A stretch of 21,360 nucleotides of DNA from a virus. Position 1 is the stretch's first letter. Every line of letters begins with the position of its first letter. This document shows positions 1 through 12,033 of the stretch, piece after piece. The stretch covers positions 1 through 21,360 of IMG/VR virus record IMGVR_UViG_3300027849_000072, one strand, 5' to 3'. Both the position numbers and the translations under genes were made by a program. The notes beneath the pieces are model-generated. The model was not told where the DNA came from and did not search any database. It worked only from the letters and a program-made list of their open reading frames with translations.

Positions 1-3000
1 CTTTAGCTCTTTTAGCTGGTTCCATCTTGTCTTTAGTAACTTCAGGAGCAGCGTCTTTAACGAGCATCTCAGTCACAACATTGACTAAACCAGCTTTTCT
101 TTTTTGAGTAAAAAACTCTTTAGCTTGTTCAAGTGTTGTAGGTAGTTTAGAGGACACTTTAGGACCAGACTGTAAGTTAGTATCTTTTGGTAGTAAACCT
201 CTGTTAACGGCTTCCCTAGCGTCTTTAACATTAAGCCTAGGACCTTGCTCTGCTAATACTTTTACTTTAGCTTCTCTTTCTAGTTTAACTAAGTCCGATG
301 CTGGTAAAGCTTTTAGTATTTCTAATATGTTCTTATTAAGAAACTGCTCATCAATAGCCTTTTCGGTACCCATAAGATCGGATACGGCTTTACGTAGTTT
401 ACTTTTTCTAGCTTCTTTATTTATAGCTGTCTTAACTTTTTTACCTGGTAGATCACTACTTAGTATTTCACCAGAAACTTCTTTAGCTAAATCGTATATA
501 GCGTCATCCTGTTTAATGCCAAGAACTCTTCTGAGTTTAGACGTAGTTGATTTAACTTTAGTTTCGTCTATAGAAACTTCATCAGCTAGCTGAGTTGTAG
601 CCTCTGGAGCGTCTAGTGATGTTTCTTGACTTGCCTTCTCACCTTCTTTAAACAATGCTTTTTTAGCGTCCATTTTACCAAAGTTAGTATTGGCAAATAT
701 AAATTCACCAAAACCTTCAACTCCAACTTTACCACCATCTTTTCTTGTAGCAGCAGGATCAAAATTTAACATTCTATCTTGTACAGATTCTATAGCTTTT
801 TCAGCTTCTTGCTTACTCGTAGATCTAGATCTTATGTAGTTGTTTATAGCGCCACCTTCGTTTATCAATGAGTTAAATACATTGTTGAATACTTTAGGAT
901 TTTGAAACTCTTCTTTAGTTTTAACTTCCGCTGGAACAAGTTCGTTTATAGCTTCTAATACAGTTGATCTAGAATCTTTTGTAATCTGTTCGTCTGTTTG
1001 TGTTTTGTCATCAACTAGCTTATCTTCACTTGCCTTTCTAGTCTTTAACTTAGAAGACTCAAGAGTAATATCAAGCTGTTTAAATTTAAACTTAGACACG
1101 TTGTCTTGATAATTTCTTATAAAATCAAAAACATCTTTACCTGTTTCTAGTTTAACACCCCCAAACCCTAGTCCGTTTAAAAACTTTTTTGTACTATTTT
1201 TTATTTTGTCAGAAAAAGATTCATTTATTACTATTTTCTCCCTAGCCACTAAATCAGAAAAAACATTAAAATACTCTTCCAAAGCTCCTTCTCTTATGCT
1301 GCCATCTTCGTTAGTGTAATTCGCATCAATACGCTCTTGAACTCGTCTATGGATATCAGGTTGAGTTTCTTTTAAATATTCCTTGAAGCTCTCAACAAGT
1401 GGAGCTACCGACTCGTTATCTGTTTCAAAAGCATTATTCGTTATATAATGCAAGAGCTCATGACCTAAAACATTTGTCTGTCCGGTTTGCTCAGCAATTC
1501 TTTTATTTACATATACAGTAGTTTTACCATCTACTGTTCTTTCAAATATAGCATCTTGCTCTCCGTCAGCGTCTTCAAGGTAAACTATTTTTAAATCTTT
1601 CTTTTTTATTCCTTTAGCTTTTTCTTCTGCTTCAGCTATTAGTTCTCTGTTTTTTAAAACTTTAGCTATATCTTCTTCGATTTTAGCATCAAACAACTCG
1701 GTGCCTACTAAAGCTTCATTTTTTTTAGTAGCTATTTCAAGTTCTTTCTGAGCGTCTTCTTGCTGACCTTTTGTGTATCTTCTATTTCCTATTTCACCAA
1801 GAGCATTATCTATAGTGCTTAAGTTTTCAGCATATTGTATTTTTTCTTTTTTAGTTAGTCCTTCAAAAGAGTTGTACAGCTGCTGTTTTTTTGTTTTAAT
1901 AATGTACTCAGTCTTTTTAATTTTTTTTCTAAATTTTTCTTTCTTACTTTCAGGAGCGTTATTTAAATTAAACTGAGCCTCAGCTAGCCTCATGCTTTGT
2001 TTAGCAAGATCTTGAGTCCATTTTTTTGGCGCAAGAAATTCTAAAGCCTGTTGCTTGCTGGCTATAGATTTAAACGCACCAGCTCCACCAATTGGAGCTG
2101 CTGACACCGCACCAACCAAACCTTCGTTTATAACATTTCTTACTGCAGATTTTAATCCTTGGTCGTCCTTATATACACCGTAGTCTATTAAAGCATCACC
2201 AATAACAGCTGAACCTTCTTCTATAAAATTAACAGCACCAGCTTTTGTCAACCCAAGACCAGCGTCTGCAGCTTTACCTAGATAAGTTTTTGTATATATA
2301 TCTACAGCTTTTTTATAGTCACTTGGATTTATAAGTTTACCAAGTTTATTTCTTTTACCTAAAACTTTTCCAATACCAGAATAACCTCTCAACAACCCAC
2401 CACCAATAAGATTAGTAGCAAACTCCACTCCTCCTTTTGCTAGTGAAGCTCCATAAATTTCAACTAAAGATTCTTCAGGTCTTTCCTTTAAAACTGTTGC
2501 AACCTCTTGACCAGTAACGGCAGCTCCTATCAAAGCGCTACCATAGGTGGGACTAGCTATGCTTAAGGCTAAATAAGGTGCAGCGCTAAAGCCTTGATTA
2601 GCAGCTAATTCAGCTGCATCAGCATAATTTCCTTGTTGTATAAGTCCATATAAATCTTGTTCATTACCCTCTGCGTCGTACTTTTTTAAAGTGTATTCTC
2701 TAAGTAAATTTGTAACATCTTCAATTGCTGAATAGTTTTCAATGCTAGCATTAACTTCTTTTCTCAATGTAGTGTCATATCCTAAAGCTTTTCCTATAGC
2801 GTAATTCATTGGAGCCACACCATATTTATCACCCACTTCTAAAAGCCCTTTGAATATGTCTACTGTAGTAGCAGCAAAGCCAGCTCCGGCGGTTATAACT
2901 GTTTCTGGAAGTTTAGAAGCTTTAGACAACTCTGATATAGCAATTTGAGAATCTCTAGCTTGTTTTTGTTTTGTTTTATCTTCACCAGTTACAATAACCT

Positions 3001-3373
3001 CTTCTAATTGCAAAGGTTCTAAAGTTCCTCCAGCTGTTTGTCTTAACTCTGCTCCTCCTTCTTTAGTGAATTCAGTGCCTTTTTTGTAAAAATCTTCATA
3101 CGGTTCTATATCTGTGTACGCCAAAGAACCATCTGCCGATGGCGATTCCGTATCGGACACTTTGGTTACATCCACAGTCGTGTCCGTTTCTGTGGTTGGT
3201 TTCTTTCCCTTTAGTTCAGTGGTTTCCACCACCGCCTCGTCTTTAACTTCAAATTCTGGATCTTCTTGTATATCTGGATTAGCTTCTAAAAAAGTTTGAA
3301 GATCTCTACCCGTTTCTTCAGCAAATTTCTTTGCTTGATCTTCAGTTAGTTTTTTACCGTTGAATATATACAT
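1..3373 (-). CDS. Giant virion protein with zincin (HELLH) metallopeptidase domain, C-terminus cut by window edge
   Basis: An uninterrupted minus-strand frame of 1124 codons runs off the left edge. ATG lies at 3371-3373, one base after the TAG of the upstream gene (TAG-T-ATG), so translation is probably coupled. Residues 1-35 form a short charged helical segment (MYIFNGKKLTEDQAKK...). Residues about 36-100 are an acidic Thr/Val/Glu-rich linker. Hydrophobic stretches lie near residues 155-180 and 262-290. Lysine-rich helical sequence follows. A zincin motif HELLH occupies residues 638-642 (bases 1448-1462), and Glu699/Glu700 in EEYFNVFSD could supply the third zinc ligand, as in gluzincin-type proteases. 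The remainder is charged and helical, with no domain I recognise. Its position after the tail and internal-virion genes suggests packaged or ejected cargo. crAss-like phages are known for giant late proteins that combine a zincin with other domains, including a virion RNA polymerase. Substrate and role (self-processing, cell-envelope digestion or other) are unknown. Confidence 0.85.
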   Translation of the reverse strand, partial: MYIFNGKKLTEDQAKKFAEETGRDLQTFLEANPDIQEDPEFEVKDEAVVETTELKGKKPTTETDTTVDVTKVSDTESPSADGSLAYTDIEPYEDFYKKGTEFTKEGGAELRQTAGGTLEPLQLEEVIVTGEDKTKQKQARDSQIAISELSKASKLPETVITAGAGFAATTVDIFKGLLEVGDKYGVAPMNYAIGKALGYDTTLRKEVNASIENYSAIEDVTNLLREYTLKKYDAEGNEQDLYGLIQQGNYADAAELAANQGFSAAPYLALSIASPTYGSALIGAAVTGQEVATVLKERPEESLVEIYGASLAKGGVEFATNLIGGGLLRGYSGIGKVLGKRNKLGKLINPSDYKKAVDIYTKTYLGKAADAGLGLTKAGAVNFIEEGSAVIGDALIDYGVYKDDQGLKSAVRNVINEGLVGAVSAAPIGGAGAFKSIASKQQALEFLAPKKWTQDLAKQSMRLAEAQFNLNNAPESKKEKFRKKIKKTEYIIKTKKQQLYNSFEGLTKKEKIQYAENLSTIDNALGEIGNRRYTKGQQEDAQKELEIATKKNEALVGTELFDAKIEEDIAKVLKNRELIAEAEEKAKGIKKKDLKIVYLEDADGEQDAIFERTVDGKTTVYVNKRIAEQTGQTNVLGHELLHYITNNAFETDNESVAPLVESFKEYLKETQPDIHRRVQERIDANYTNEDGSIREGALEEYFNVFSDLVAREKIVINESFSDKIKNSTKKFLNGLGFGGVKLETGKDVFDFIRNYQDNVSKFKFKQLDITLESSKLKTRKASEDKLVDDKTQTDEQITKDSRSTVLEAINELVPAEVKTKEEFQNPKVFNNVFNSLINEGGAINNYIRSRSTSKQEAEKAIESVQDRMLNFDPAATRKDGGKVGVEGFGEFIFANTNFGKMDAKKALFKEGEKASQETSLDAPEATTQLADEVSIDETKVKSTTSKLRRVLGIKQDDAIYDLAKEVSGEILSSDLPGKKVKTAINKEARKSKLRKAVSDLMGTEKAIDEQFLNKNILEILKALPASDLVKLEREAKVKVLAEQGPRLNVKDAREAVNRGLLPKDTNLQSGPKVSSKLPTTLEQAKEFFTQKRKAGLVNVVTEMLVKDAAPEVTKDKMEPAKRAK

Positions 3374-3374
3374 A

Positions 3375-4535
3375 CTAGTTAAATTGATCTACTGTTAATT
3401 CTTCTTCTACTACTTCTGTTGACTCAGGTTGTACTTCTTCTTTAACTACTTCTGTAGTCGCGCCAACTGCTACCGTAGGTAATAATGGTTTTAAACTTTC
3501 AAACATAAGCTTTTGAAACTCAACTTGTTGCTCTTCGTCTACGTTATTACCGTTAGGAGCTACTGTAAACCTTAAATCTTCAGGCATGCCGAAGTTATTT
3601 CTCCACACTCTATTAGCCTCAGTGTATACAGCTAACAAGGCTTCTGCTTTAGCTGAAGATCTAAATTTAGTGTCATTAAGAATTTTAGCCATATTAGCTG
3701 GCGTGAATTCAGTTTGACTTTTACCATCTTTACTTATTTCAACATATTTTCTGTCAAGCAGCAAGTAAGCATCGTTGTATTGAAGACTCTTGTCTAGTAT
3801 AGAAGTAGGTTCTCCATTGACGTCTAAAGCGCTAGGCTCTTGAAGCATTTTTATATTATCACCTCTTAAATCTAAAACTAAACCAGGATCATAAGACAAC
3901 CATTGTACAGCTGGTTTTTCCACTGTTTTTCCGTTTAATATACTACCTGTATATCTTAACCTTATATCTCCATCTTCTCCAGCGTAATACTCTTCTTTAG
4001 CATCATCTCCAGCTAAACCGCTTCTAATGCTCATGGTTTTACACCATTCTAAAGTATCTAAACCTACTAGAGCCATACCTCCTGGCTGTCCAGGATTTTT
4101 AGAATCTTCAAATCCAAAGTATTCTGACATAAACATCGCATCAGTTTCTTTTCCTAACTCTATTACAGCATAAAGCTCTTCAAGTGAATTAGATAATTTT
4201 TTTAAGGTAACACCAGCGTCTCTTCTTTGCTCTCTGTTTTTAGCGTTTTCAACTAAGGAATTAGTATTGTAAATTCCCCATATCAAACTATTCCCAAACT
4301 CACTTAAAGATGGGTTTCTAATTCCGCTTTTCTTAATGTTATTTATTGCAGATTCAGAATCGTCATACACTCTAGCAGACACGTCTCGCTGAACTTTAGC
4401 AGCTTCTTTTTGAGAAGAAGACATAGATTTGTAAGCATCAGTAATAGACTTAGATGTTGTTTCTTCTAAATCTGTGATGTACTTACTCCAAAAGCTGTTA
4501 GCTTCCTTGTTTATTTTATTAAAATTATCTGACAT
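3375..4535 (-). CDS. Unrecognised helical virion-cassette protein (possible internal virion/cargo protein)
   Basis: This is a 386-residue protein with no family I can name. It starts at ATG 4533-4535, six bases after the TAA of the upstream gene, behind an A/T-only leader. The N-terminal 130 residues are predicted helical and polar (NKINKEANSFWSKY..., then runs rich in Ser, Lys and Glu). The middle is mixed, with several Trp and Tyr residues. The C-terminus is acidic and low-complexity, with a repeated TEVV-x-EE pattern at about residues 361-379. There is no signal peptide or clear membrane segment. It lies between a probable ejection protein and the zincin giant, so it is probably a virion component carried inside the head, in the position of T7 gp15 or the crAss-like cargo proteins. 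That role rests on position only. Confidence 0.75.
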   Translation of the reverse strand: MSDNFNKINKEANSFWSKYITDLEETTSKSITDAYKSMSSSQKEAAKVQRDVSARVYDDSESAINNIKKSGIRNPSLSEFGNSLIWGIYNTNSLVENAKNREQRRDAGVTLKKLSNSLEELYAVIELGKETDAMFMSEYFGFEDSKNPGQPGGMALVGLDTLEWCKTMSIRSGLAGDDAKEEYYAGEDGDIRLRYTGSILNGKTVEKPAVQWLSYDPGLVLDLRGDNIKMLQEPSALDVNGEPTSILDKSLQYNDAYLLLDRKYVEISKDGKSQTEFTPANMAKILNDTKFRSSAKAEALLAVYTEANRVWRNNFGMPEDLRFTVAPNGNNVDEEQQVEFQKLMFESLKPLLPTVAVGATTEVVKEEVQPESTEVVEEELTVDQFN

Positions 4536-4541
4536 ATTTTA

Positions 4542-5363
4542 TTATTTTTTTGCCATTGCAAAAGCAGATACACCGTCTCCAACGGCTGATATACCTGATT
4601 GTATAGCTTGAGATTTAGCTGTTGCGGCGCTAGACTCCGCTTGAGCTGCACCGGTTATTTGAGCTTGTTTTCTAGACATCATTTGTTCATCTCTAGACTC
4701 CTGCGTTTCAAATTTATATATTTCACCTTGAACATCAGCTCGTCTCTGGTAGTCAGCTTCAGATATTAAAGTTGTTTGAACTCTTTTAGCTTCATCTAGT
4801 TGTACTCTTTGCAGTCTTTCTTCTCCAGACGCACGCATTTGATTGTTTTGAGCTTCTTGCTGCTGTATACTTGCTGATACGCCTTTCTTGCTTTCTAAAG
4901 CCATTCTAGCTAAAGCGGTTGCTCCACCGGCACTAGCGCCAGTAGCTCTTAAAGTGTCTAAAGTATTAGCTAAAGCTATGTCAGCTTCTTCTATCTGCAT
5001 TTCAGCCGCTCCAGTAGCTACAGTTAAATTAGCGAAAGGATTAGAAGATATACTACTTAAATCAGATACCATTTCAGATAAATCTGAAACATCTTCATAA
5101 GGATTTATAACGGTTTGTCTTTTTCTTTCTAATGTTTCAAGCTGGTTTGTGAGTTTTCTTTTTTCTTCTCTAGCTCTTTTTTCTCTCTTGCTAGCCGCGC
5201 TTGCTCCAAATATAGAAGCCCCAATACTAACAGCTGTACTTATACCTATAGCTATAGGCATTGCTCCTTGTTGTCTTTCTACTATAAGGTTATTCAATAC
5301 AACTTGAGTCGACTCCATACAAAGAGAATCGATCAAAGTTGTTATTTCATTTATTATTAACAT
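4542..5363 (-). CDS. Probable internal virion / DNA-ejection protein (T7 gp14-like position)
   Basis: This 273-residue protein has a short hydrophobic, Gly/Ala/Ser-rich segment at residues 35-55 (PIAIGISTAVSIGASIFGAS), followed by a basic helix (KREKRAREEKRK). A long Gln/Ala/Glu coiled-coil region then contains NPFANLTVATGAAEMQ and DTLRATGASAGGATALA, and the C-terminus is again Ala/Gly-rich. This layout resembles small internal virion proteins of marine podoviruses that enter the host envelope with the DNA. The longest frame starts at 5361-5363 and overlaps the cupin gene by 17 bases. A second possible start is Met35 at 5259-5261, preceded by AAGGAG only two bases upstream. Homologues that I recall begin near this hydrophobic segment, so the true start is uncertain. 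The family call is by pattern and position, not by search. Confidence 0.72.
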   Translation of the reverse strand: MLIINEITTLIDSLCMESTQVVLNNLIVERQQGAMPIAIGISTAVSIGASIFGASAASKREKRAREEKRKLTNQLETLERKRQTVINPYEDVSDLSEMVSDLSSISSNPFANLTVATGAAEMQIEEADIALANTLDTLRATGASAGGATALARMALESKKGVSASIQQQEAQNNQMRASGEERLQRVQLDEAKRVQTTLISEADYQRRADVQGEIYKFETQESRDEQMMSRKQAQITGAAQAESSAATAKSQAIQSGISAVGDGVSAFAMAKK

Positions 5364-5835
5364 ATTCCGTGTATTTTTCTTTATTAATGCAGCAATTGTA
5401 ATCCTGTAATAGGTCTATATCTTTTATATCTTTTGGGTTTTTAAATACATTTTGAAAGACTGATTCTTCATGAGCGTATATAACTCTTTGTATGCCTGAC
5501 TTTGAAAAACCTAAATAAGGAGCTTCATAGTCTTGCTCTCCGTCTTCACTTACAACGGTTACGTATCCTTTTAACAAAAACCAAGCGTGATCTCTTTTAT
5601 GCACAGCGCCTATAACTACAGCTTCTGCTTTCATAGTCATTTGTCTTAAATATATTCCAGGAGCAAAATCATGTTTGAAGGTAACCCACTCGCTATCTTG
5701 TTTGCAGATATTGCCATCGTTATGTATTAACAAATCATTAGATTCGTTTTTAATGATATTGTTGACTAGAGTTGAGACTTTATTATTGAAGCTTTTAGTT
5801 AAAATGTTTTTTTTAAATTTAATTAACGTATTCAT
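5347..5835 (-). CDS. Small cupin-fold protein
   Basis: This 162-residue protein has a single cupin domain at about residues 50-135. The first cupin motif is visible as PGIYLRQMTMKAEAVVIGAVHKRDH, followed by LLKGYVTVVSEDGEQDYEAP. The second motif is SGIQRVIYAHEESVFQNVF. Candidate metal ligands are His79, His83 and His122. Similar cupins (pattern PG-x-Y-x-R, H-x-x-x-H/E-H, G-x-v-t-V, AP, pG-x-x-R, hEds) recur in late operons of marine podoviruses, where their function is not established. Residues 1-48 are a basic helical extension. ATG at 5833-5835 lies five bases after the upstream stop, and the 3' end overlaps the next frame by 17 bases. It may be a minor virion protein or a sugar- or metal-binding accessory factor. 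Only the fold is supported. Confidence 0.78.
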   Translation of the reverse strand: MNTLIKFKKNILTKSFNNKVSTLVNNIIKNESNDLLIHNDGNICKQDSEWVTFKHDFAPGIYLRQMTMKAEAVVIGAVHKRDHAWFLLKGYVTVVSEDGEQDYEAPYLGFSKSGIQRVIYAHEESVFQNVFKNPKDIKDIDLLQDYNCCINKEKYTEYVNNK

Positions 5836-5840
5836 TTAAT

Positions 5841-7325
5841 TTAATATGATGATTCTACGTAATTAGAAGAAACGGCAAACAATTCTTTCATGCCTCCTGG
5901 ATCTGTAACTGAATCAGTAGATATCGTTACTGTTGCAAAGTACCCTTTTATACCTGTCATAGAATTACCCCAAACAACTTCACCTGCAGCTGCTGGACTG
6001 TTATTTATAAGGTTAGCCATGTATTTGTTTTCTTTTCTATCAAACCCAGCGTGATTTATAGGTGGTGTCATTTGAGCCGGATATTGATTTCCAAGGTCAT
6101 CGTAAGAACCTTGATTGTAACTATATACTTTTATAGGAAGAGGCTCTATATCTCCGTTAACAAGAGAGTTAGATCCTGTTATATCTCTAGTTTGACTAGC
6201 ACTGCTTAGTAGGTTTGGAGTATTTATACCTGTTATGTCAGAAGCAAATAAATCAACTTGCCATCCGTTGCCACCTTCATAATTAATCGTTTTAAACACT
6301 TTAGACATACTAACCTTAGGGTTGAATATGAAAGTTACACTTGACTTGTATTTAGTTCCATAGAACTCAGCTCTATCAGCCGACGGATCATAATGCATGT
6401 AAAGTTTACCATCTTTAAGTGTATAATAGTTGTTTTTCAAACTAACACCTTGATCTGGCTTATAACTAAAGAAGCTAGGAAATCCGTTTATACTATCGTC
6501 AAAAGCTAGTGTTGAGTATTTTGAATCTTCAGGAGGTTGAGTAGATACTACATATTGTTTGTTATGCACGTCCCAAGCTCCTATAATTTTACCTTCTGCT
6601 TGAGAAGTGTTTACAGTGGCAAAAGTGTCTCTAAAGTAATCAGTCATACCATAATTAGATATTTCCGTTAAACCATCTCTAGATAGCCTTAAAACAACGC
6701 CTCTGTCTTTGTCTGTAAAGTACTTTCTAAACCCGTAAATGGCAAAACTCTCTGGGTTTCTACTTATGCCGTATGTGCCACCTAAAGGTCTTATTGCTCC
6801 AATTACTAAATTAGAAGACGTAACAGTTCCGCCTCCTTCAGCAGAATATATAGCATCTTTATCTATTAAGGCTTGACTAACTTTAGACTCTTGAAATATA
6901 ATTAAGTTAGTATCTTCAGCGTATAGCCTCTGTATAGAACCATTAGCAGGATCTACACTTTTGACTATGTCATCACCTATTGAGAATACATTAGTATTAT
7001 TAACGCCTGTTCTAGAATTAAATATACCTGAATATATCATTGAGTTGATTCTAAAAGTGGCATTTGGTTCATTTTCAACTAAATAAGCTTTAACTCCGGG
7101 TTCTATAGACGTGTTGTTATATCCTCCTCTTATTCTAGCTTCTTCCACGGCCCAATTGCTGGTATTAACAACAGCGGGATCAGGCACATAATTATCGTTA
7201 TCAAAGGTGTTGTCACCTCTAGATCCGTTCCACATAGGTAGCAAAACACCATCAGGTCCATCAGCTGTTCCGTTGACTTTTTTAAGTACGAAACTGTTAA
7301 AATATTTAACTTCTATTACTCCCAT
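5841..7325 (-). CDS. Tail-hub/stabilisation protein, propeller-like half (muzzle-type)
   Basis: This 494-residue beta-rich protein has signatures I recall from tail stabilisation or muzzle-type proteins of crAss-like and marine Bacteroidota phages. These are GGYNNTSIEPGVKAYLVE (68-85), YSGIFNSRTGVNNTNVFSIG (98-117), SIQRLYAEDTNLIIFQESKV (130-149), YGISRNPESFAIYGFRKYFT (185-204), SRDGLTEISNYGMTDYFRD (215-233), IIGAWDVHNKQYVVS (247-261) and FPSFFSYKPD (282-291). The repeated D-x-x-N-x-x-Y-V and Y-x-L-K-D-G-K-L-Y units suggest propeller blades. ATG 7323-7325 lies 40 bases beyond the stop of the 1555-residue gene, behind GATAATATAAT. The two proteins together look like one larger family member divided between two genes. 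It probably forms part of the tail tip or barrel. Confidence 0.8.
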   Translation of the reverse strand: MGVIEVKYFNSFVLKKVNGTADGPDGVLLPMWNGSRGDNTFDNDNYVPDPAVVNTSNWAVEEARIRGGYNNTSIEPGVKAYLVENEPNATFRINSMIYSGIFNSRTGVNNTNVFSIGDDIVKSVDPANGSIQRLYAEDTNLIIFQESKVSQALIDKDAIYSAEGGGTVTSSNLVIGAIRPLGGTYGISRNPESFAIYGFRKYFTDKDRGVVLRLSRDGLTEISNYGMTDYFRDTFATVNTSQAEGKIIGAWDVHNKQYVVSTQPPEDSKYSTLAFDDSINGFPSFFSYKPDQGVSLKNNYYTLKDGKLYMHYDPSADRAEFYGTKYKSSVTFIFNPKVSMSKVFKTINYEGGNGWQVDLFASDITGINTPNLLSSASQTRDITGSNSLVNGDIEPLPIKVYSYNQGSYDDLGNQYPAQMTPPINHAGFDRKENKYMANLINNSPAAAGEVVWGNSMTGIKGYFATVTISTDSVTDPGGMKELFAVSSNYVESSY

Positions 7326-7365: not shown

Positions 7366-10300
7366 TCATGTAAAGTTAGCTGTTATAGGTACGGACGTTC
7401 CTTTTATTTTTTTAGCGTTTGAATCAAATTGAGCTACAAATCTTCTTAAAGCTTTAGGAACACTCGTAGTACCAGCAGGATCATAGTTGTTAGCTATTTC
7501 GTCTTGCCCGTATATCCATGAGTTTTCAGTACCGTTTTCATATACAAACTCAGCTTCGGTAGATGTGCTAGGGCTGTAACAGTAATATCCTGCTGCAAGA
7601 TTAGTTATAGGTGTAACTAACGTTGAATCGGTGTAAAATTGAGTAACATATCCCATTGCCCATTCTCTTGCCCAAACGGTTACGTTTAGAGTTTTAAAAG
7701 ATGCATCAATTGCACTTACGGATGGCGTAGTTGCTATTAAATAAGGATAAGAAGTTCTTGAGCCGGTAGTGCCTTGAGGATAGTAAAAATCACCATAAGC
7801 TAATTTTATTTTTAAATTTTGACTAGTACGAAAACTACCTCCTGATTTAAAAGGAGTAGTTGAGTTGTTCCAGTTGCTTGCAGGAGTAGGAACTACAGCA
7901 AAATTACCCGCGTAGCTAGCTGATTGAGGATATCTAATAACTAACCTGTATTCTCCAAATTTATCAGGAGTTTCTTCGTAGCCTTGATCTTTACCAAAAA
8001 CAAAAATCTTACTTAAAACAGATGTTGTTTGTTGTTGGGTATTTTGTGGCATGAAATCGTTGTAAGATGTAGCAATATCAATGCGCTCTCCAACTGTAGC
8101 CACATGACCTTCATCGGCATCATTTAAAAAACCTATGTCGTAAAAAGTAGAGCCCGGAGCCACAGAAGCACCGTTATTATCTTTATTGTAGTTTTTTTGC
8201 CATCCTCCGTAATTGATATTTTCTCCTTCTACATCAACAGCTGTGATCCAATTAGCTGAACCTACTGGTCTATACTGTAGGTAAGTAGGCCAACCTACGC
8301 CAAGCTGATCATTCGGAATGCTTGTTACTCCATTATTTGGAAACATTTTAAAGCTATAGTCAACTCTAATGTAAGCTGTCCCTTTGTCTAATGTATTATT
8401 AGAGTCAAAATCAGGCACTGTTGAATTTGGCTGAAAAGATAGCGGCTTCCTGTTAACGTTGATCCAAGCATATTCATTTCCTTGCGCATCTAAAAGGCCT
8501 GAGCCAGAGTAATCCAATATTTCCCTAGAGCTAGATTGTAATCCAGTATCAGAAAGCTCTAACCCAGGGTATGGAGCTCTACCAAGTGCATCTGTGTTTT
8601 TTACTTCCACAGGCACGTCGTCACCTCCAATTAAAGTAGAACTACTATAGTCAGCTCCCCAATAAAACCCTGTAGACGTAAGACCGTCACCTATATCTGC
8701 TGGAGTTGGTATGTTACCAAACTTAGCACTAGCTTCTTCTTGACCAAAAACAGCTGTCATGTTTCTAGTGTCTACATCTCCACCTGAGTCAATAACCTCA
8801 ACTGAAAACGTATAAGTGCCTTTAGCTGTGAGAGGAGCTCTAACTTCACCATTACTATTTATAGTTAATTCTGGTATTACGCTTGAAGGTGCTGGAATTT
8901 GGTTTGATATGGTCCACGAAAGATCATCTTGGTTAGTAAATTCAGTATTCGAACCAGTAGGCTCGTAACCGTTAACAGCTGTAAAAGTAGCTATTGGCTG
9001 CGTTTCTAATCTGTCAGCTGTTAGCGTAGGTAAAGGATTAGAAGGTGCGCTAGTATTTATAGTAGGAGCCACGTTAGCTATTTCTAAAAACAAAGTACTA
9101 GTAGTTGTTCCAGAAGCAGCTTGTGAAGGATTAACGTTAGCTTGAGCGCTTGTTTCAAATGTAAATTTAAATGTATTACTACCCTCTAAAGGTCTATGGT
9201 ATATAGACTGATTAACCGTCAACGTGTATTGATCAAAGGGCTCCACTGCTGTGATGTCGTCTTTATCTATTTTACCGAAAGTCCACAATGAACTAGCATC
9301 TTCTCCTGTTAAAACCCTTTCTACAGCAATTAAATTAACCGTACTATTGACAATAGGTATACTACTTATTCCTAAATTAATAATAGGGTTAAAAGTTTGA
9401 ATTCTAAGTCCAGATGGTGTTCCTTCGTTTTGAGCAGAATCTTTCCAACCGCTAAAACCGTCAGGAGATTCGTCTTGACCAGCGACAGCATTAAGATCTT
9501 CTACTAATCCAGTAGTCGATGTCTCATAGTATATATCTAATAAAGAAACTCTAGGATTTGTTTCAAAAACACCTAAAAGTATTCTATAAGGGTCTTTATA
9601 GTCAAGAGCCTGAAGAGATCCTATTGGATTTCCTGGGTTGTTACCTTGAGCTAGTCTAGCTAGATAAGGATCACTATCTTGCTCGTATACAGTAGAATAA
9701 GGCGGTCCAATTGAAGGGTTGGTTCCGGTGTCATCTTTAAACATATCATCTTGACTAGCTATAGTAGAAACCGTTTGTGGATTCGTTATAGGGTAGTATG
9801 GTATGTTTATGTCTGTAGAGCCAGTTGCTAAGATTACGGGCGGAGGCGTTACTCTTCCGTATAGCTTTACGTCACTTCTAAACTGATTTTGATTTCCGCT
9901 AATTTCATTTAAATCTCTTGGCACTTTATTTATATTATCACCAAGCAGCGTTATAAAAGCAACACTGTCTTCTGGAGAAGGTATGTTAGTGGCTCCGCTA
10001 CCATGGTCCGGATAACCATTTAATATTCCAGGCGCATATACATTGTAATATTCTAATTCAGTTTGTTTTACTACGATTTTATAAGAATACCAACCTAAAG
10101 GATTGTAATTGCTACTAGCTGAATCTCCGTTGTATATACCATTCCATCCGGAGCTATCGCCTGTTAAGGCATCTGGTAGTCGAGCGCTGTTAGTAGGCAC
10201 GGGAGGCGTGTTTACGGAAACTTTTAAAGAATCTCCACTCCAAGTGTTTATATTATTATCAGCTCCAGGGTCACTAGTGTATGGATGATAAAAAGTAGAA

Positions 10301-12033
10301 CCGCCAAAAGTAATTCCATCTTGTGTTTTACTTGATGGTTTTACTTTAGACAATATAGTGCTAGACTGTCTACCATATCTATCAGATAAAATAAAACCTA
10401 ATTGATAACTTCTATTTTGTTTAACGTTATGCTGAGGATACTCTACAGAGCTAGTAGTTTGTGAAGCTACTAAACCTGATTCTGAATAAGGTGATTTTTG
10501 ATTAACAACAACGTCGTAGTCGAATAAAGCAGGTGGAGTGTGTTTATCTTGAAAATTACTATAAACAACTCTATTTGATATTATTTCTTGACCAAAAGCT
10601 CTAACTGGAGTTTTATCGTAAACTCTAATTATTTCGCTTTCTGGTAATGTTTTATATGGTTTTCTTGACTGATAGCTGTATACGTATTGATTACTTGTAT
10701 CTGGATTACCGTCTTTTGTTTGAAAATCTTGATAACCTATTGTATCTAAAACTTTAACAGCTAAAGAATCAGACTCTTTAAATAGTATCTCTATTTCAGT
10801 TACACCTACCTCTTGTCTTATAGTGCTTGGAGATAAATCTATGTCTCCAGTTGAGTTCTTACCTAGAGGTATATATAGTCCAACGTTATTGACTTTGTTT
10901 TCCATAAACCCAACAATGCCACTAACTATAGCTTTTTCTTCATCACCCACTAAAAAGTAACCATCTTTTTTAGGTATAAAAGCTTCTTGAGTGAAAGGAG
11001 CCATGATTGACTTTTCACCATCCTCAAATGTGAATCTATAACTAAAAGAAACAAATTTATCTTCTAAGTATATAGGATCACCAGGCCAGCTACCGCCAGC
11101 TTCAACAGGAACTCCTAGTGGCTTGTCGTAAAAAGGGTTTTGAGAAAACACTAACACGGTGTTATCTGTTAAGGTTACTGTATTGTTTAACGTTACGTTT
11201 CCACCGAGGCTAGGAATAACATTAGGCGTCCAACTAACTACTTTAGTACCACTTGCGATACCATCACCCGTTACGCTGACTTCAGCTAGAGGCACATTTC
11301 CAATTATGTTGTTTATAGCTATTATATTGCCAGTAACTCCAGCTGGTTCGTTTACAAGAGCTTGACCGCCGTTTGGAAGATAAGGAGTAACTACGTCTTG
11401 CATAGAGCTATACGGAGTACCACCATCAACATAATAAAGATCTATAGTTTCATAAGGATTATACTTAGCTACTGATATAGTGTCTTCGTTTATGTATGAT
11501 TCGTAACCTCTGTCTATGTTTATCTTTCTAGGTTGATTTCTATTATCAGTCCAAAACAGTAAGTTTTCTAATAAGTTTATACCATATATAGGGTATTGTT
11601 GGCTAAAGTTTAAAAAAGCTCCTTCAGCTAATTTAACTACAGATTTAGTAACCCCGTTGTAAGAGTATATAAAGTTTTTAGCGTCAGAAGAGTAATTAAT
11701 GGTGGCAGCAGTTTCGCCAGTACCACTAACTCTAGGAAGGCTTTGATCTGTTAAAAATACAAATACACTAGAAGTTCCCTCATTAGCGTATGCACCTATA
11801 GATTTTAAAGTTCCAGTCGCTAGTCCAGACAAAACACTAAAATCTACATCAACATTAGTATTAAGTTTAGCTATTGAGTTTCCAGGAGCGTTTTCTAAAG
11901 CACCTACGTCTTCGCCTTCTGATTTACTAACTTGTACGTTTTGTCCATCACGATATTCACCTGAAGGTAGTAACCTACTATCAAGATCTTTATTCATTTT
12001 AGACTTTATAAAAGCATTTTTAACTTCTGCCAT
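7366..12033 (-). CDS. Giant tail-hub/stabilisation (muzzle-type) protein with Ig/cadherin-like insert
   Basis: This 1555-residue structural protein starts at ATG 12031-12033, five bases after the upstream stop. The N-terminus (FIKSKMNKDLDSRLLPSGEY, 8-27; then RDGQNVQVSKSEGEDVGALE to residue 47) is the signature of phage tail stabilisation proteins. Further family-like blocks are LLFWTDNRNQPRKINID (158-174), FSYRFTFEDGEKS (330-342), KTLPESEIIRVYDKTPVRAF (461-480), the block 486-506 containing NRVVYSNFQDKHTPP, QLGFILSDRYGRQS (544-557) and PRVSLLDIYYETSTTGL (827-843). Residues about 985-1097 look like a single Ig/cadherin-like domain (NVAPTIN..., LTINSNGEVRA, GTYTFSVEVIDSGGDVDTRN). Residues about 1100-1555 are beta-rich, with many Ser, Thr, Tyr and Trp, and are unrecognised. 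They could be a receptor-binding region. The product is inferred to sit at the distal tail and act with the 5841-7325 product. Confidence 0.82.
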   Translation of the reverse strand: MAEVKNAFIKSKMNKDLDSRLLPSGEYRDGQNVQVSKSEGEDVGALENAPGNSIAKLNTNVDVDFSVLSGLATGTLKSIGAYANEGTSSVFVFLTDQSLPRVSGTGETAATINYSSDAKNFIYSYNGVTKSVVKLAEGAFLNFSQQYPIYGINLLENLLFWTDNRNQPRKINIDRGYESYINEDTISVAKYNPYETIDLYYVDGGTPYSSMQDVVTPYLPNGGQALVNEPAGVTGNIIAINNIIGNVPLAEVSVTGDGIASGTKVVSWTPNVIPSLGGNVTLNNTVTLTDNTVLVFSQNPFYDKPLGVPVEAGGSWPGDPIYLEDKFVSFSYRFTFEDGEKSIMAPFTQEAFIPKKDGYFLVGDEEKAIVSGIVGFMENKVNNVGLYIPLGKNSTGDIDLSPSTIRQEVGVTEIEILFKESDSLAVKVLDTIGYQDFQTKDGNPDTSNQYVYSYQSRKPYKTLPESEIIRVYDKTPVRAFGQEIISNRVVYSNFQDKHTPPALFDYDVVVNQKSPYSESGLVASQTTSSVEYPQHNVKQNRSYQLGFILSDRYGRQSSTILSKVKPSSKTQDGITFGGSTFYHPYTSDPGADNNINTWSGDSLKVSVNTPPVPTNSARLPDALTGDSSGWNGIYNGDSASSNYNPLGWYSYKIVVKQTELEYYNVYAPGILNGYPDHGSGATNIPSPEDSVAFITLLGDNINKVPRDLNEISGNQNQFRSDVKLYGRVTPPPVILATGSTDINIPYYPITNPQTVSTIASQDDMFKDDTGTNPSIGPPYSTVYEQDSDPYLARLAQGNNPGNPIGSLQALDYKDPYRILLGVFETNPRVSLLDIYYETSTTGLVEDLNAVAGQDESPDGFSGWKDSAQNEGTPSGLRIQTFNPIINLGISSIPIVNSTVNLIAVERVLTGEDASSLWTFGKIDKDDITAVEPFDQYTLTVNQSIYHRPLEGSNTFKFTFETSAQANVNPSQAASGTTTSTLFLEIANVAPTINTSAPSNPLPTLTADRLETQPIATFTAVNGYEPTGSNTEFTNQDDLSWTISNQIPAPSSVIPELTINSNGEVRAPLTAKGTYTFSVEVIDSGGDVDTRNMTAVFGQEEASAKFGNIPTPADIGDGLTSTGFYWGADYSSSTLIGGDDVPVEVKNTDALGRAPYPGLELSDTGLQSSSREILDYSGSGLLDAQGNEYAWINVNRKPLSFQPNSTVPDFDSNNTLDKGTAYIRVDYSFKMFPNNGVTSIPNDQLGVGWPTYLQYRPVGSANWITAVDVEGENINYGGWQKNYNKDNNGASVAPGSTFYDIGFLNDADEGHVATVGERIDIATSYNDFMPQNTQQQTTSVLSKIFVFGKDQGYEETPDKFGEYRLVIRYPQSASYAGNFAVVPTPASNWNNSTTPFKSGGSFRTSQNLKIKLAYGDFYYPQGTTGSRTSYPYLIATTPSVSAIDASFKTLNVTVWAREWAMGYVTQFYTDSTLVTPITNLAAGYYCYSPSTSTEAEFVYENGTENSWIYGQDEIANNYDPAGTTSVPKALRRFVAQFDSNAKKIKGTSVPITANFT

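Follow-up and report, generated by a model that had tools for sequence, protein, structure and literature searches.

Giant, ejected, multidomain phage proteins that carry a zincin are a kind already known from N4, P1 and the polyvalent proteins (PMC5512222, PMC12633501). In the phage crAss001, the muzzle protein gp44 is followed by two cargo proteins, gp45 and gp46, and then by the giants gp47, gp49 and gp50; all of these are found in virions, gp45-gp47 by mass spectrometry (MS) (PMC10172136). How crAss-like and related Bacteroidota phages begin to transcribe their genes has been worked out only in those groups that have a virion RNA polymerase (vRNAP). Here we analyse a 21,360-bp stretch of viral DNA that makes up the entire IMG/VR record IMGVR_UViG_3300027849_000072 (the window), in which a truncated giant open reading frame (ORF) lies downstream of a muzzle gene. 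Its predicted product joins a zincin-type domain to a probable sigma-70 region 2-like domain, and among its homologues the zincin is exchanged on a nearly constant back half. On balance, we favour the interpretation that this is an ejected cargo protein whose sigma-2-like part aids early transcription by the host RNA polymerase, and whose zincin is an exchangeable protease head. If this is true, a relative that does without a vRNAP and has a sigma-2-like domain in a protein at the cargo position would have solved the start of transcription in another way.

The giant frame runs on the minus strand from an ATG over 1124 codons with no stop up to the record edge, as the first-pass annotation had described, and because the window spans the full IMG/VR record, the protein is cut off by the edge of the record itself. 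Relatives were collected with three queries (the window protein, its end, and the C-terminal domain of the homologue L002), giving a set of 68 non-redundant giant proteins whose complete members are mostly 2100-3300 amino acids (aa) long. Complete homologues of similar make-up measure 2259 aa (L002, with its stop at L002:16780) and 2313 aa (L008) and carry additional domains, in agreement with the earlier view of a truncated giant that continues past the edge. The order of domains is a leader, a hydrophobic variable region, the zincin, the sigma-70 region 2-like domain, a conserved block that we call M4, a second variable cassette and a constant C-terminal domain. Searched directly, the window protein and its complete homologues match no family in Pfam, PHROGs or NCBIfam, and a Pfam scan of the window protein, L002 and L003 detects no LPD or other known polyvalent domain; the domain assignments rest on profiles built from relatives. 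The two hydrophobic stretches reported earlier ahead of the zincin motif do correspond to hydrophobic sequence, in the form of four Gly/Ala-rich 19-mers, but their Kyte-Doolittle means of 1.04-1.41 fall under the usual threshold for a transmembrane helix, and none is a confident one.

An iterated hidden Markov model (HMM) of the zincin region aligns 65 of the 68 giant homologues, and across these 65 the residues equivalent to Glu639, His642 and Glu700 are invariant, while His638 is kept in 59. The HExxH motif occurs in 58 of the 68, always exactly once, against 0.18 occurrences expected over the whole set in shuffled sequences. In the window protein it reads HELLH, exactly where it had been placed. 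The Glu699-Glu700 pair proposed to contain the third zinc ligand is likewise present, 57 residues separating His642 from Glu700, and the alignment singles out Glu700, since position 699 is a mixture of Glu (38 members) and Asp (19). In an AlphaFold model made from a 52-sequence alignment, HELLH and Glu700 each sit on a confidently modelled helix (61-74 and 123-138), so that as far as helix placement shows, the motif is not off a helix near Glu699/700, an arrangement that would have spoken against a zincin. Structural matches to this model by VIA-align are few and weak (Z at most 5.2), though mostly to zincin folds, with lethal and edema factor chains at Z 5.2-3.3 (anthrax lethal factor 5.2), SprT at 2.8 and MATCAP at 2.4, and Foldseek against the PDB gives no match with E under 0.001. 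Taken together, alignment and model indicate that residues 585-773 are a real zincin-type (gluzincin-type) domain with Glu700 as its third ligand, for which proteolysis is predicted.

Directly after the zincin, 61 of the 68 giant proteins have a domain of about 120 residues (iterated HMM), which the first-pass annotation did not mention. A 43-member profile of this domain matches 53 sequences in the PDB (best E=7.8e-4); nearly all are sigma factors, with region 2 as the aligned part, including SigA, RpoS, RpoD, SigB, FliA, WhiG and T4 gp55, whereas the zincin, M4 and C-terminal profiles from the same giant proteins show no bias toward sigma factors in this search. The window, together with L010, L037, L076 and L082-L087, has a divergent version of the domain, which hhalign aligns to the canonical profile (82% probability, E=1e-5) such that the F-D-P motifs coincide. 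In a structural ranking, the AlphaFold model of window residues 800-1124 (predicted local distance difference test score, pLDDT, 83) finds RpoE, SigH, WhiG and another Mycobacterium sigma chain, aligned on its first 117 residues; the sigma chains take ranks 2, 3, 5, 6, 9, 12 and 14 (Z 5.0-3.9), interleaved with unrelated helical proteins. Foldseek against viral models returns one uncultured-virus protein first (probability 1.00, E=0.014). We consider homology to region 2 likely for the domain across the family, given its profile matches, and probable for the window's own copy, given the profile alignment and the model.

The back half of the protein has a different history from the zincin. At fourfold-degenerate sites, M4 of the window differs from that of L002 by 0.15, compared with 0.42-0.56 for neighbouring genes, and about half of the family has another block in the place of M4. 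The C-terminal ~650 aa form the constant domain, 47-87% identical among 27 members, and a second variable region lies between it and M4. A set of HAD phosphatase-like motifs occurs in 26 of the 68 proteins (DFDDTLA ... LTAR ... DD, for example at residue 2079 of L025 and residue 713 of L028), placed in these examples just before the C-terminal domain. The constant domain has no relative in Pfam, PHROGs or the PDB, and the M4 profile none in the PDB or PHROGs; a match of M4 to crAss001 gp50 in a 13-protein set (E=1e-5) was dropped, as hhalign gave it a probability of only 1.7%. The clearest contrast comes from natural pairs: L003 and L007 are 99% identical in each of the sigma-like, M4 and C-terminal domains and 22% identical in the zincin, and L003 and L009 are 100% identical in the sigma-like domain, 99% in M4 and 28% in the zincin. 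At the DNA level, the L003 and L007 giant genes share two blocks of 96-98% identity, against ~70% for the genes upstream. Near-identical blocks beside divergent neighbours argue for a recent exchange of the constant blocks through homologous recombination, and for replacement of the zincin-bearing N-terminal half as a unit. Thus, from sequence alone, the protease domain can be recognized as a cassette swapped on a constant back half. The edge of the record falls within the shared M4 block, and this is probably why the assembly broke there.

An exchange that leaves zincins only 22% identical makes fixed cleavage sites in the constant half unlikely, and fits better with a changing target or with sites in the co-swapped N-terminal half. 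One alternative to our favoured interpretation, which we regard as possible but doubtful, is that the zincin is above all a diversifying effector that enters along with the phage DNA and cleaves host defence, RNA polymerase or envelope proteins. That the zincin and the N-terminal half are the swapped, divergent part is what would be expected of a protein facing a changing target, and the option was named for polyvalent zincins by Iyer et al. (PMC5512222). However, no secretion or envelope signal was found, the target is hypothetical, and variants that have lost the first catalytic His exist. His638 is replaced in six homologues (EELFH in L021, L023, L029 and L064; QEVGH in L051 and L052), L042 has HExxxH in place of HExxH, and L016 and L074 are without the domain. 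The seven that retain the domain in altered form are probably, to judge by these substitutions, pseudo-proteases or zincins with altered metal sites. Pairs such as L003 and L007 make the question of what phage-borne zincins target directly testable.

The same variants bear on the idea, raised in the first-pass annotation, of a polyprotein processed by its own protease, in which the zincin would cut the giant into functional units before packaging or after ejection. Such processing was proposed for polyvalent proteins by Iyer et al. 2017, citing the processed P1 DdrB (PMC5512222), and the tetrapeptide KFSK could suit it as a processing site or a linker signal: it is enriched elevenfold in the giant proteins of L002-L081 (58 seen, 5.3 expected) and is often positioned where domains meet, such as just before the C-terminal domain or beside the HAD-like domain. 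Its occurrence, however, does not track an intact zincin motif, as it is found in L021, L023 and L064, which have lost the His, and is missing from several proteins with the motif intact; we keep it only as a lead. Moreover, zincins ~22-28% identical sit on constant halves ~99% identical, six homologues are without the first His and two without the domain, and the N4 vRNAP is packaged unprocessed. Self-processing is therefore disfavoured for the constant half, and though it keeps some standing as an account of the whole protein, we think it rather improbable. It is less probable again that the zincin fold is inert and serves only to build up a large ejection protein. In favour of such a scaffold are the 7 of 65 homologues that keep the domain without a canonical HExxH, and the C1 subdomain of the N4 vRNAP, which has an HExxH with no activity reported in the available part of its description (PMC12633501). 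The retention of His638, Glu639, His642 and Glu700 in most lineages at ~25% overall identity nevertheless points to selection on the metal site.

The position of the gene suggests how the protein reaches the cell. In nearly all relatives, the muzzle is followed by a small protein, a protein of ~190-330 aa whose N-terminus is usually hydrophobic, one of ~370-680 aa and then the giant, an order that corresponds to gp44-gp45-gp46-gp47 of crAss001; phage phi18:3 has gp120, gp121 and gp123 (1935 aa) in this slot, and tandem MS is the basis on which these are annotated as virion proteins. By analogy, the giant is probably cargo that is packaged in the virion and leaves it together with the DNA, and the earlier proposal of a packaged protein thus gains support from the slot downstream of the muzzle. 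The accompanying proposal of a vRNAP is not supported. A scan past the window edge, made on the homologues, finds D-x-D-G-D neither in the complete L002 nor in the near-complete L003. Four relatives' contigs, which amount to genomes of ~64-70 kb with one giant ORF each (two adjacent pieces in the second copy on G001), show no polymerase-type DFDxD motif in a large ORF. A search with the phi14:2 vRNAP matches nothing in 20 relatives, which is a weak test because virion RNA polymerases of this kind diverge fast, and no RNA polymerase is among 25 of the 30 families matched in a Pfam scan of 66 ORFs of the contig G005. Although crassvirus vRNAPs do lie near this slot (crAss001 gp50, with DFDVD, and phi14:2 gp077, with DFDID), these null results, the lack of a second giant ORF in the four contigs and C-terminal halves that match no known family make a vRNAP in the missing half very improbable. 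G005 does encode a stand-alone sigma factor (L108:7321-8070; Sigma70_r2 at 4e-8, above the curated cut-off, with a weak region 4), and ORFs with a similar start are found in G001, G002 and G003. With a sigma-like domain in the giant, a separate sigma factor and no virion polymerase detected, the lineage seems to work through the host RNA polymerase.

Beyond the architecture, zincin signature, sigma-2 resemblance and cassette swapping, we infer the ejection and function of the giant protein as follows. It would leave the capsid through the tail, accompanied by the products of the two small genes that directly precede its own; in the cell, its sigma-2-like part is predicted to contact the host RNA polymerase, promoter DNA or both, and this contact would help to start early phage transcription, replacing the virion RNA polymerase of Crassvirales. 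The zincin, as an exchangeable protease head, would cleave a host protein or a site within its own co-swapped N-terminal half. A more specific scenario, which we put forward tentatively and consider less likely than its general form, is that the lineage has exchanged an ejected virion RNA polymerase for an ejected sigma-like factor fused to the protease head, so that a virion protein captures the host RNA polymerase on entry while the head is swapped to follow a changing host target. Several observations weigh against the favoured interpretation. The giant proteins scanned have no match to Sigma70_r4 (region 4, which recognizes the -35 element), and no other promoter-reading part was found in the giant, so it carries a sigma-2-like domain and not a full sigma factor; the region 2 E-values are modest, with Pfam run member by member finding Sigma70_r2 in one member only; and for the window's model of residues 800-1124, Z is 5 or less and Foldseek against the PDB gives nothing significant. 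The zincin profile has no zincin or other sequence relative in the PDB, and gp123 of phi18:3 has no HMM match to the domains of this family despite occupying the same slot, while the virion MS evidence comes solely from same-slot proteins of other phages. Finally, the relatives' contigs may be incomplete, in which case a missing vRNAP is not proven.

Features of the giant gene and of the genes around it, in window coordinates.
Feature	Position	Strand	Basis
Giant ORF cut off by the record edge (1124 aa); front half of a ~2.3-kaa protein	2..3373	-	ATG start; complete homologues
Conserved N-terminal leader, residues 1-75	3149..3373	-	87% identical to L003 over 1-46; similar to L002 over 1-149
Variable region, four Gly/Ala-rich hydrophobic segments (starts 159, 268, 378, 419)	2063..2899	-	Hydropathy
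Zincin-like domain, residues 585-773	1055..1621	-	Family HMM E=2.7e-43, 65/68 homologues; AlphaFold core pLDDT ~76-95
HELLH, residues 638-642	1448..1462	-	Model helix 61-74
Glu700, predicted third zinc ligand	1274..1276	-	Invariant 65/65; model helix 123-138
Sigma-70 region 2-like domain (probable), divergent version, residues 811-935	569..943	-	hhalign to canonical profile; model alignment
Conserved block M4, residues 947-1113	35..535	-	99% identical to L002 and L005 at the aa level
Protein of 386 aa preceding the giant gene, in the slot that cargo protein 2 has in crAss001	3375..4535	-	Synteny in relatives
Possible ejection protein of 273 aa; N-terminal part hydrophobic and Ala/Gly-rich, with a coiled region	4542..5363	-	Synteny; shared N-terminal pattern in most relatives
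Muzzle protein, C-terminal part, separate ORF	5841..7325	-	Pfam crAss_MUZ_C E=6.7e-14
Muzzle protein, N-terminal part, separate ORF	7366..12033	-	PHROG 14478 positions 1-177, E=3e-37

The main genes of the window all lie on the minus strand, in the order terminase large subunit (TerL), portal, a 402-aa protein, the capsid protein, proteins of 254, 241 and 409 aa, the two-ORF muzzle, proteins of 162, 273 and 386 aa, and the giant ORF. The structural block of TerL, portal, capsid protein and a muzzle with Pfam crAss_MUZ_C agrees with the earlier assignment to the crAss-like phages. The capsid protein is 53% identical to that of a spring-water podovirus (MW202828), 48% to that of Maribacter phage Panino, 45% to those of the Flavobacterium elemo phages, 40% to that of Cellulophaga phage Calle_1 and 25% to those of Pachyviridae such as phi18:3. 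Judging from this block and these relatives, the window belongs to an uncultured, marine-type crAss-like podovirus, and the capsid-protein relatives suggest that its host is probably a member of Flavobacteriia. The muzzle is likewise split into two adjacent ORFs in L002, L003, G002, G003 and G005, and is a single ORF in crAss001 (gp44, 1371 aa). The small gene after it (window 5347-5835) is fibre- or adhesin-like here (PHROG 12032), and many relatives, such as L002 and L003, have a different, acetyltransferase-like gene at this position, with the neighbour in MW202828 annotated as an acetyltransferase; by this comparison it is a swapped accessory gene. Past the giant gene, L002 encodes a 125-aa protein that contains a hydrophobic segment, and then an M15 peptidase; these are likely lysis genes. 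Elsewhere, G005 at 47-67 kb and its relatives have matches to GroES-like and GroEL-like proteins, as well as long ORFs that are repetitive and tail-fibre-like, and GroEL/GroES genes are also present in elemo, Calle_1 and MW202828. G001 (129,537 bp, locus L022) consists of two related phage genomes in tandem, ~64 kb each and probably a joined assembly, with the giant gene of the second broken into ORFs at 94900-98571 and 98507-102280. The loci L113-L133 are pieces of these phages inside metagenome bins that bear labels such as Woesearchaeota, Aliivibrio and Caldiserica, likely through binning contamination.

Among Crassvirales, the cargo proteins gp47 of PhicrAss001 (2341 aa) and gp076 of Cellulophaga phage phi14:2 (1421 aa) resemble the window giant in being large and encoded downstream of the muzzle, and those two have been found in virions by MS. 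Each also has one HExxH (HEAFH at 2157 in gp47, HEIMH at 245 in gp076), but neither has significant similarity to the zincin, sigma-like or C-terminal profiles of the window family, and the C-terminal profile matches none of phi14:2 gp076, gp077, gp078 and crAss001 gp47. Both phages carry a vRNAP, which the window lineage apparently does not. The giant of Flavobacterium phage elemoE (3694 aa, annotated as structural) has a zincin of the same family (HMM E=4.4e-14, HEIFH at 1543) in the same slot and a related capsid protein; it has a DUF3293, and the sigma-like, M4 and C-terminal domains were not found there. As a large multidomain phage protein that joins a zincin to unrelated domains, the window family falls within the description of polyvalent proteins, those with a zincin-like MPTase being likewise large, with the zincin in mid-chain, an HExxH and a Glu on a second helix, an HExxxH variant as in L042, and proposed delivery at infection (PMC5512222). 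Unlike them, the window giant has no detected Pfam LPD domain, and the text of PMC5512222 does not mention a sigma domain. No paper joining a zincin and a sigma factor in an ejected protein was found in the literature searched, which was thin on subscription journals, and the combination of a zincin with a sigma-2-like domain, like the swapping of the zincin, appears to be undescribed. The 3500-aa vRNAP of phage N4 is also a giant ejected protein; it contains an HExxH domain (PMC12633501) and acts when transcription begins. N4 brings in a polymerase, whereas the giant of the window family has, in place of one, a sigma-2-like domain.

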